A stretch of 64,000 nucleotides of DNA from Olsenella sp. An285. Lineage in GTDB: Bacteria; Actinomycetota; Coriobacteriia; Coriobacteriales; Atopobiaceae. Below the pieces are notes generated by a model. The model ran no database searches. It saw only the letters and a program-made list of their open reading frames with translations, and was not told the origin of the DNA. Below are positions 6,202-36,084 of the stretch, one piece after another (position 1 is the first letter of the stretch; each line of letters begins with the position of its first letter). Made by a program: the position numbers and the translations under genes. The stretch covers positions 1-64,000 of the forward strand of contig NZ_NFIZ01000003.1 in NCBI RefSeq assembly GCF_002159625.1. The letters run 5' to 3'.

Positions 6202-6596
6202 GCGCCGCGGTGCCGCCCGCTGCCGCCGCCCGCTGCCGGCGTCGGGCCGTGCGGCAGGTCCCCGCGTGCCCAAACGCGCACGTCAAGGTATACTCGAACC
6301 CGTCTCAACCCAGGTCTGTGGTTGCGGGCGGGCAACGCGCCCGTCCTAGTCCAGGCCAGACGAGGGCAAAGGGATCCACGTAAGCCCGGGCGTGCGCGCC
6401 CTGGCGATCATGGCTCGTCCTAGAGGTAAGTCGTACCGCCCGTCATACCTATGAGGCATCCGGCCTCGCGGGCGAGAGGGGCAAGAGTGGAGGCGCCGCG
6501 GCGCCAAAAGCAACGTCCCCGGTGCGCGGGTGTGGGGTCAAAGACCAGGTCAGCTGGGTGAGACGCATCGATGACGAGAAGGACGGGGGTCCTGAA
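6202..6596 (+). other. Long GC-rich leader/intergenic region
   Basis: About 395 bp lack a gene. A -10-like TATACT at 6289-6294 would give a leader of about 300 nt before the lipoprotein start at 6597. The leader is rich in short complementary runs, for example GGGCGGG near 6330 with CCGCCCG near 6448, and GACGAG near 6360 with CTCGTC near 6416. I could not match it to a riboswitch class, 6S RNA, RNase P RNA or tmRNA. Confidence 0.4.
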
Positions 6597-14232: not shown

Positions 14233-14266
14233 AACCTCTCGTCCCGCTGCGTTCTTCTCGCCGTGC

Positions 14267-33558: not shown

Positions 33559-34433
33559 GCTCGCGCGCGGGCCGCTTCGTGGCGGCGGCGTTTCTGGCGG
33601 CGTGCCTCTACGCCCTCTCCACGCCGTGCTCCAAGGCCCTGCTTGCCAACGTGGCGCCCAACATGATGGCCGCCCTGCTCTACCTGGGCGCGGGCGTGGG
33701 CATGGCGGCGCTGACGGCGGCGCGCGCCGCGGTGGGCAGGGGGTCCTCGGCCGAGGCGCCGCTCGAGCGCGCGGACGCGCCCTACGTGGCGGCGATGGTG
33801 CTGCTGGACGTCGCGGCGCCCATCCTGCTCATGGTGGGCCTTTCCCACGCCGCTCCCGAGAACGTGGCGCTGCTCAACAACTTCGAGATCGTGGCCACGG
33901 CCGTCATAGCCCTTCTCGCCTTCCAAGAGCGGGTGGCGGCGCGCACCTGGGCGGGAATCGCCGTGATCACGGTGTCCTGCGCGCTGCTCAGCCTGGAGGG
34001 GGAGGCCGCGCTGAGCTTCTCCTCCGGCTCGCTCCTGGTGCTGGGGGCGTGCCTGTGCTGGGGCGTGGAGAACAACTGCACGAGCCGCCTCTCCCAGCGA
34101 GACCCGGCGCAGGTGGTCATAGTCAAGGGACTGGGATCGGGCGCGGGGGCGCTTGCTGTCGCGCTCGTCGCGGGAGACGCCCTGCCCGCGCCCCCGGATG
34201 CCCTCGCTGCCCTTCTCCTGGGCTTCGTCGCCTACGGGCTCTCGATCTTCTTCTACGTCTACGCGCAGCGCGGGCTGGGCGCGGCGCGCACGAGCGCCTA
34301 CTACGCCGTGAACCCCTTCATCGGGGCGGTGCTCTCGCTCGTGCTGTTTAGGACGGTGCCGGGGCCGGCCTTTCTTCTGGCCCTCGCGCTCATGGCGCTC
34401 GGTGCCTGGCTGGTCACCCCGCGGGAGGGCTGA
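33555..34433 (+). CDS. EamA/DMT-family transporter
   Basis: A 292-aa protein with ten predicted helices in two EamA halves (first FVAAAFLAACLYALSTPCSK, second SLLVLGACLCWGVENNCTSR). Drug/metabolite transporters of this kind export small polar metabolites; the substrate is unknown. GTG 33555 overlaps the esterase stop as GTGA, which indicates translational coupling. It ends at the 61-bp repeat array. Confidence 0.85.
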   Translation: MSSRAGRFVAAAFLAACLYALSTPCSKALLANVAPNMMAALLYLGAGVGMAALTAARAAVGRGSSAEAPLERADAPYVAAMVLLDVAAPILLMVGLSHAAPENVALLNNFEIVATAVIALLAFQERVAARTWAGIAVITVSCALLSLEGEAALSFSSGSLLVLGACLCWGVENNCTSRLSQRDPAQVVIVKGLGSGAGALAVALVAGDALPAPPDALAALLLGFVAYGLSIFFYVYAQRGLGAARTSAYYAVNPFIGAVLSLVLFRTVPGPAFLLALALMALGAWLVTPREG

Positions 34434-34447
34434 GGCGGGTCGGTTGG

Positions 34448-34620
34448 GGTGCAAAACCACGACGCTCCGGCGGTCCAGAGTGTCCGATTCCCGCACGCCA
34501 TCGGCTGAGGTGCAAAACTAGGACGCTCTGGCGGTCGGAAACGTCCATCTTTCGCACGCCATCGGCTGAGGTGCGGCAAGACGACGTTTCCGAGTCGTAG
34601 AACGTCCATCCGCCGCACCC
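34448..34620. repeat. 61-bp hairpin array, three units
   Basis: Units start at 34448, 34509 and 34570, exactly 61 bp apart. Each opens GGTGC and closes with GCAC. Unit 3 pairs GGTGCGG with CCGCACC and ACGTT with AACGT. Unit 2 pairs AAA with TTT and GGACG with CGTCC at the same places. Stem bases change together, so the folded form seems conserved. It lies between convergent stop codons. Confidence 0.8.
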
Positions 34621-34641
34621 CAGGCGCCGGGCGAGAAGAAC

Positions 34642-36084
34642 CTACAGCCGCGGCTCCGGCTGCGTCTCGAGGTCGCGCCCCACGCGCCCGAGGCGCGCGA
34701 CGTCGGTCTCCGCCTGCCCCTCGTGCCAGTCCGCGCGCTTGGCGTGGTCCGGGTCACGAGGGTCCGCCCACAGGCGCTCGGCCACCGGGGCCCACGCGGC
34801 CGCTGCCGGCGCGGTCTTCTCGCGCAGCTGCTCGGGGGTCTCCCTCTCCACGAGGTCCGTCGAGTGCGCGCCGGTCTCCGCCACCATGCGCGGCAGGTCG
34901 TCCGGGTTCTCCAGCATGGGACAGGGGCGCAGGTGGTTGGTGTTGAACGGCTGCGACTCGTAGTACTTCATGAAGAGCGGGGAGCGCAGGGCGTCGAGCA
35001 GGCTCACGTCGTGGATGTTCACGTTGGAGTAGTGGACGAAGACGCACGGCTCCACGTCTCCCGCGGCGTTGATGTGCAGGTAGCGACGCCCGCCGGCGAT
35101 GCAGCCGCCCACGTACTCGCCGTCGTTCTGGAAGTCCATCGTGAAGAGCGGCTTCTTGCCGCGCATCTCGCGCACGAAGCGGTACATGCGCTCGCGCTGC
35201 TCGGGCGTGGGGATGAGCTCCGGCGCGCTGGCCCGGCCCACCGGCATGAAGTGGAAGTACCAGCAGAAGAGCGCGCCCTTCTCGATCATCCAGTCCATGT
35301 TCTCCTCGGTGGCGATGGCGTCCGCGTTGGCGCGCGTCCAGCAGGCGGAGATGCCAAAGGGCAGCCCGTGCTCGCGCAGGAGGTCCATCGCGCGCTCGAT
35401 CTTGGCGTAGGTGCCGTTGCCGCGGCGGGCGTCCGTGGTGTGCTCGTTGCCCTCGGCCGAGATGGCGGGCACGAAGTTGGCCACGCGGATCATGTCCTGG
35501 CAGAAGGCCTCGTCTATGAGGGTGGCGTTGGTGAAGCAGAGGAAGGCGCAGTCGGGGTACCTCTCGCAGATGCGGATGAGGTCCGCCTTGCGCACGAGCG
35601 GCTCGCCGCCCGTGTAGATGTAGACGTGCACGCCCAGCTCGCGGCCCTGGTCGATGATCGAGCAGATGTCCTCGTAGGAGAGGTTGAGCGCGTGCCCGTA
35701 CTCCGCCGCCCAGCAGCCGGTGCAGCGCAGGTTGCAGGCGCTCGTGGGGTCGAGGAGGATGGCCCAGGGGACGTTGCACCCAAGCTCGTCGCGCTTCTTC
35801 TCCTGCACGGGCCAGGCGAGCACGTTGGCGTCCACGAGGAAGCACTTGATGAGGCGGCTCGCGACCTCGGGGTTGAGGTCGAACACGCGCATCATGAGCT
35901 GGTACCAGTTGCTCCGGCTGTCGATGGCGCTCCGGAAGGCCCTGCGCTGGGTGGGGAAGACGTTGGCGGGGACGTACCTGTCAACGGTGTCCATGAGCTT
36001 GGGGATGCGCGCCTCGGGGTCCTCCGAGACGTAGTCCACGAGCTTGTTGAGGGCGGCGCGCTCCGCCGCCTGCGAGATGCCCAT
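34642..36084 (-). CDS. Radical SAM/SPASM-domain protein
   Basis: 480 aa. The radical SAM cluster CNLRCTGC follows LLDPTSA, and the SAM-binding GGEP is in YTGGEPLVRK. The C-terminal SPASM-like region has Cys in GGCIAGGRR, EPCVF and LRPCPML for auxiliary iron-sulfur clusters. Such enzymes often modify peptides or proteins. No precursor peptide or peptidase is obvious next to it, although the 50-aa gene at 36476 lies divergently. AAGGAG precedes ATG 36084. The reaction is unknown. Confidence 0.85.
   Translation of the reverse strand: MGISQAAERAALNKLVDYVSEDPEARIPKLMDTVDRYVPANVFPTQRRAFRSAIDSRSNWYQLMMRVFDLNPEVASRLIKCFLVDANVLAWPVQEKKRDELGCNVPWAILLDPTSACNLRCTGCWAAEYGHALNLSYEDICSIIDQGRELGVHVYIYTGGEPLVRKADLIRICERYPDCAFLCFTNATLIDEAFCQDMIRVANFVPAISAEGNEHTTDARRGNGTYAKIERAMDLLREHGLPFGISACWTRANADAIATEENMDWMIEKGALFCWYFHFMPVGRASAPELIPTPEQRERMYRFVREMRGKKPLFTMDFQNDGEYVGGCIAGGRRYLHINAAGDVEPCVFVHYSNVNIHDVSLLDALRSPLFMKYYESQPFNTNHLRPCPMLENPDDLPRMVAETGAHSTDLVERETPEQLREKTAPAAAAWAPVAERLWADPRDPDHAKRADWHEGQAETDVARLGRVGRDLETQPEPRL

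Follow-up and report, generated by a model that had tools for sequence, protein, structure and literature searches.

Background

Interspersed palindromes that follow genes are usually read either as RNA hairpins or as relics of transposases. Among the described systems closest to the repeats considered here are the REPs and BIMEs of enterobacteria and pseudomonads, which bind several proteins (PMC2817692, PMC3733652), the CGTC-tagged REPs and the neisserial dRS3/NIME repeats. CGTC REPs have an 8-9 bp stem whose first two pairs are AT, a 4-5 nt loop, a CCA tail and a terminal unpaired CGTC (PMC3733652); their clusters are rare, and Actinobacteria are not among the five phyla in which CGTC repeats have been listed (Di Nocera et al. 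2013, PMC3733652). The dRS3 repeat, ATTCCC-N8-GGGAAT, is combined with RS elements of 30-160 bp and is a target of phage integration (PMC3898611).

Here we present an analysis of three tandem repeats from Olsenella sp. An285, located in a window of 64,000 nucleotides (contig NZ_NFIZ01000003.1, positions 1 to 64,000). They are members of a genus-specific family, not listed before, of palindromic DNA arrays with rigid spacing, and a literature search returned no report of such repeats for Olsenella. On balance, the observations favour DNA sites that a putative protein reads over an RNA hairpin. We put the probability at roughly 0.5 that such a candidate protein binds the arrays as DNA half-sites, lying on one face of the helix.

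Results

Three tandem units between convergent genes

As the preliminary description had stated, the array lies between convergent stop codons. Its three tandem 61-bp units (34440-34622) occupy the gap between the stop codon at 34433 of an EamA-like transporter gene (PF00892; 33555-34433, plus strand) and that at 34642 of a radical SAM gene (PF04055, with SPASM below cut-off; 34642-36084, minus strand). The copies, at 34440-34500, 34501-34561 and 34562-34622, are 100, 75 and 62% identical to copy 1, respectively. Each unit is a 50-bp dyad made up of a 17-bp arm, a 16-bp centre and an inverted 17-bp arm. The core of unit 1 spans 34448-34497 (arm 34448-34464, 16-nt centre 34465-34480, inverted arm 34481-34497), that of unit 2 34509-34558 (arm 34509-34525, centre 34526-34541, inverted arm 34542-34558) and that of unit 3 34570-34619 (arm 34570-34586, centre 34587-34602, inverted arm 34603-34619), with CCATCGGCTGA as the 11-bp spacer both at 34498-34508 (units 1 and 2) and at 34559-34569 (units 2 and 3). 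The centre of unit 3 reads CGACTCG on the minus strand, and this unit is orthologous to one in genomes G006, G009, G016 and G028. Directly after the radical SAM stop codon lies a 10-mer resembling an uptake sequence, GTTCTTCTCG, at 34632-34641 on the minus strand.

The whole array folds better than its dinucleotide shuffles (z -3.5; 0 of 200). Single units fold weakly on the plus strand (z -0.8, -1.0 and -2.5) and more strongly on the minus strand (z -2.1, -3.2 and -4.0), so that the gain in stability over shuffled sequence, which had been proposed as a check on the fold, was found for the full array and was weak for single plus-strand units. No Rfam covariance model matched the array at its gathering score; the only match in the whole window was a raiA RNA at 6304-6562 on the plus strand, a strong one of 144.9 bits.

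It had also been claimed that units 2 and 3 differ by compensatory changes in both arms. At two positions this is so: arm position 7 is A-T in unit 2 and G-C in unit 3, and position 8 is A-T in unit 2 and C-G in unit 3, both being double changes that keep pairing. The remaining claimed positions did not bear it out. At position 9, unit 2 has a pair that unit 3 lacks; across positions 10-12 no unit pairs, save for a single G-T in unit 3 (position 11); and position 13 is G-C in unit 2 and C-C in units 1 and 3. The supposed exchange of GGACG/CGTCC for ACGTT/AACGT sets positions 13-17 against positions 15-19 and so compares two registers of what is partly one stem. In register, Watson-Crick pairs common to all three copies are confined to positions 2-5, 14-16 and 19.

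A genus-specific family of arrays

BLAST with the array turned up relatives of it, both at other places in the genome and in sister species. Units were counted with a strict pattern, GTGCR-N7-GAC-N18-GTC-N7-YGCAC, and the reversed pattern served as control. The tandem 61-bp hairpin-like copies of the preliminary description are real, the same geometry occurring 57 times in this genome against 0 for the control. Strict units number 69 in G018, 38 in G009, 21 in G008, 18 in G019 and 14 in G006. Counts in the analysis as a whole are inflated by the relatedness of the species, and degenerate copies are under-sampled, because loci were picked by strict patterns. Thirteen of 31 congeners carry strict units, seven of these with one or two, and the other 18 carry none; the reversed pattern had zero matches in every genome of the genus that was scanned. 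Outside the genus, the strict pattern matched once each in 2 of 109 family members, and a GTDB-wide scan gave, among the matches listed, mostly single chance ones. A sister type has CGGGC instead of GGTGC as its outer block on the same 17-16-17 core, with 19 strict units in G007, 17 in G013, 15 in G028 and 9 in G016.

Identical units stand at three contig ends of this genome, G000 (C2:54, C15:17683 and C18:7), and a near-identical two-unit array occurs twice on its contig C12, at 183342 and 185651, 2.3 kb apart. These cases probably reflect assembly breaks and a duplication.

Geometry of the half-sites

Each 17-bp half-site consists of two constant blocks, an outer GGTGC(GG) or CGGGC and an inner GAC, with a variable middle between them. 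When arms alone were sought in this genome, with spacing unconstrained below 70 bp, the distance from arm to arm alternated in all arrays between 33 bp inside a unit and 28 bp from one unit to the next, with a few spacings of 26, 27 or 29 bp. The 33-bp distance predominates within units in nine species, and the unit-to-unit spacing is 61 bp in 127 of 131 cases from 87 arrays.

In the CGGGC species, spacers measure 8-12, 19-22 (with one of 25), 33-34 and, once, 51 bp, and none falls at 13-18 bp. The peaks, near 11, 21-22 and 33-34 bp, are about one helical turn apart, with a Rayleigh R of 0.82 at 10.5-11 bp, the sample being 43 spacers in four species that are related to one another. With spacers of these lengths, the constant blocks come back at intervals of approximately whole turns. 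The CGGGC loci were chosen with the exact 50-bp pattern, so that an unbiased test of the geometry comes from neighbouring units alone. Within a unit, the distance read from the sequence is about 11 bp between GTGC and GAC and 21 bp between GAC and GTC, and these distances would place the constant blocks on one helical face. A motif-free search, SGACG-N16-CGTCS, met a high background from coding DNA. Tandem units resemble one another (left-left arm identity 0.70, right-right 0.64), and since they are related by tandem duplication, the fixed spacing could partly be inheritance, a point against reading the units as DNA sites.

Placement relative to genes

Arrays lie mostly downstream of genes and almost all are intergenic, with a usual start 10-60 nt past the stop codon. 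With flanks taken from our own ORF caller, not from annotation, the GGTGC arrays that have two called flanks and no ORF across them comprise 35 convergent, 40 co-directional and 3 divergent cases, to which arrays with an overlapping ORF call add one co-directional and one divergent; the CGGGC arrays with two called flanks comprise 12, 28 and 3, respectively. Adjacent gene pairs in the window itself are convergent in 10 cases, co-directional in 33 and divergent in 10.

Orthologous sites and motif turnover

The site after the radical SAM gene holds one unit in G018, two each in G006 and G009, three here, and CGGGC-type arrays in G016 and G028. One unit at this site keeps its centre, CGACTCGAAAAC, at 14-15 of 16 positions in G006, G009, G016 and G028. 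Its arms agree between types at only 19-20 of 34 positions, the outer arm being GGTGC or GGCGC in G006 and G009 and CGGGC in G016 and G028. At many other loci, arrays are common to GGTGC and CGGGC species with both flanks aligned (for example, L128, L288 and L307 with L357, L377 and L351); centre similarity there is partly due to the shared GTTCTTCTCG motif. These shared loci imply that array sites are long-lived and that the arm motif turns over. Conservation of a hairpin-capable dyad architecture is thus supported, in that the two subfamilies keep 17-16-17 and orthologous sites keep arrays while arms change. In orthologous units, mid-arm pairing is often lost.

Unrelated palindromic or tandem elements also follow the radical SAM gene, at L315 (G015), L318 (G003), L321 (G024) and L320 (G027), as well as at L317 (G005), L324 (G013) and L329 (G017), which suggests that several species-specific palindrome families replace one another at this site.

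Coupling of unit halves and strand preference

Left and right arms paired at 0.487 over positions 8-12, compared with 0.468 after right halves were shuffled within species (21/400). At position 13 the values were 0.814 and 0.763 (1/400), and at the inner positions 18-22 pairing was at or below that of the within-species shuffles. Adjacent units paired at 0.530 over positions 8-12, compared with 0.495 when shuffled (3/400), a signal exceeded by that of tandem duplication (0.70 and 0.64). A weak pairing excess remains at position 13 and between adjacent units, and it counts against DNA sites as the explanation. Swapping right halves between units of a species left the folding energy unchanged in nine of nine species (p 0.14-0.91). 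At co-directional loci, G-U on the transcribed strand was not in excess over A-C (151 versus 133, p = 0.31), and sense and antisense stability did not differ (p = 0.27). In every species, units in their native form are far more stable than after mono-shuffling, and arms conform to the species consensus.

Together, the weak coupling and the null results of the swap and strand tests imply that palindromy belongs to the species consensus rather than to single hairpins. Two earlier proposals are not supported by these results: that the copies reveal compensatory selection on the fold, since within-species shuffles and half-swaps gave little or no coupling of the halves, and that the fold acts as RNA, since the tests for a G-U excess and for a sense-strand preference gave no support to strand-specific RNA selection. 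The suggested survey of covariation over homologous arrays had a divided outcome, the dyad being kept between subfamilies and coupling within species being slight.

An uptake-sequence-like 10-mer

The 10-mer GTTCTTCTCG is the commonest of the window, with 25 copies (at 14251, 34641 (-), 56823 (-) and 56855, among others) and 85 copies at one mismatch or fewer, against 3.9 expected. This genome (G000) contains 690 copies, compared with 18 of the reversed control; about 250-700 are present in 27 of the 28 same-genus genomes searched and 100 in G026, and numbers in other families of the order are mostly near background. Over the loci analysed, intergenic DNA has 1.67 copies per kb, coding DNA 0.21 and the arrays 3.68. 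By these counts, GTTCTTCTCG looks like a DNA uptake sequence; we know of none described for the Coriobacteriia, and a literature search found no paper linking DNA uptake sequences with that class. A form of the motif, TTCTTCTCG, is present in 57 of 308 16-bp centres, about 20 times the overall rate (units bearing it lie at loci L122, L125 and L281, among others), which recalls the uptake sequences inside neisserial terminators.

Discussion

DNA-bound protein, RNA element or selfish repeat

A reading of the arrays as DNA sites fits the interchangeable halves, the fixed centre length, the turn-quantised spacers, the lack of strand preference and the turnover of the motif on both arms; fixed 16-nt loops combined with spacers about one turn apart speak for DNA rather than RNA. 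The main rival is a role as RNA at 3' ends, in which transcribed hairpins stop transcription or shield mRNA ends from exonucleases, as proposed for REPs. We regard this as possible and lean against it. The arrays lie close to stop codons and avoid divergent intergenic regions, a placement that is also typical of RNA 3' elements and counts to that extent against DNA sites; the units fold far better than mono-shuffled sequence, the full array with a z of -3.5; and similarly placed REPs are thought to work as RNA (PMC3733652). Against such a role stand the interchangeable halves, the absence of a strand-specific G-U excess, the equal stability of sense and antisense, the fixed loop length and the quantised spacers. 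Moreover, a T-rich tail is found at just 29 of 266 array ends, so that the arrays do not have the form of an intrinsic terminator (GC-rich hairpin plus T tract), although T-tailed terminator-like sites are present elsewhere in the window.

The arrays might instead be selfish REP- or MITE-like palindromes, mobilised by a transposase whose needs would dictate their geometry and merely tolerated after genes. They are indeed dispersed and multi-copy, vary between species and are tolerated mainly downstream of genes, and Y1 transposase genes occur in 28 of 31 congeners. We nevertheless consider this origin unlikely, because G019 (99% completeness, 41 analysed units) has no Y1_Tnp match, Y1_Tnp is also found in genomes that lack the array motif, the arms have neither a hairpin nor a GTAG tag, and arrays persist at orthologous sites in many species while their arms turn over, unlike recent insertions. 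Least probable of all is that tandem copies are kept foldable by compensatory mutation, with an RNA hairpin or cruciform itself under selection. In its favour are the two true double changes between units 2 and 3 (positions 7 and 8) and the fact that, at an orthologous site, the two subfamilies have different outer arms both left and right; however, unit halves show little or no coupling in shuffles and half-swaps, orthologous units are often unpaired in mid-arm, and at the level of the unit the idea is largely refuted.

If the arrays are DNA sites, each half-site would be read independently by a putative DNA-binding protein, dimeric or bridging, that sits on one face of the helix, and turnover of the motif would track shifts in the specificity of this binder. 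Bound arrays might then have an effect where genes end, parting convergent transcription units as a roadblock, say, or as a supercoiling or nucleoid site. A single protein of fast-changing specificity would in that case mark 3' gene boundaries across a genus of the Atopobiaceae. More tentatively still, the arrays may be cis sites of a genus-specific DNA-binding factor that evolves rapidly. In each genome, dozens of dispersed sites would then have switched half-site motif together, in one direction or the other between GGTGC and CGGGC, with location, centre and helical phasing unchanged. That scenario, which we think possible rather than probable, would be an instance, in bacteria, of a recognition motif at gene boundaries turning over in concert throughout the genome.

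Comparison with known repeat systems

Like the neisserial dRS3/NIME repeats, the arrays combine short inverted repeats with a variable centre, lie in intergenic DNA and belong to a genome with an abundant uptake sequence. The sequences are unrelated, and we know of no fixed 61-bp period in dRS3/NIME arrays. A layout like that of CRISPR or of integron attC sites (box-spacer-box) was rejected, there being no unique spacers or cassettes between units.

With the CGTC-tagged REPs the arrays share a conserved CGTC/GACG block, pairs in opposite orientation, the lack of a known dedicated transposase and a position near the 3' ends of convergent and co-directional genes. However, the 17-bp arm that carries this block contains none of the stem, loop and tail that define CGTC REPs, and tandem arrays, rare there, are usual here.

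The arrays are REP/BIME-like in placement but fail the tests of REP membership. They resemble REPs and BIMEs in being intergenic, multi-copy, regularly spaced, alternating in orientation and found mainly after genes. They differ in that the 17-bp arms (GGTGC/CGGGC-N8-GAC) are not hairpins, having no internal stem and no GTAG tag (REPs carry GTAG, or a GTGG-like tag, at the foot of a 20-40 bp hairpin), and in their strongly variable middle, fixed centre length and turn-quantised spacers. Nor do they fit a REP driven by a RAYT (Y1 transposase, PF01797), given the absence of a match in G019 and the presence of Y1_Tnp in motif-free genomes. In their 33/28-bp alternation, 61-bp period and almost wholly intergenic location the arrays do correspond to BIMEs, which bind DNA gyrase, IHF and Pol I; BIMEs, however, are built of REP sequences, a building block that the arrays lack. 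The family thereby helps to tell apart RNA, transposase and DNA-protein accounts of palindromes after genes, and its interchangeable halves, equivalent strands and helical spacing favour a DNA-bound protein.
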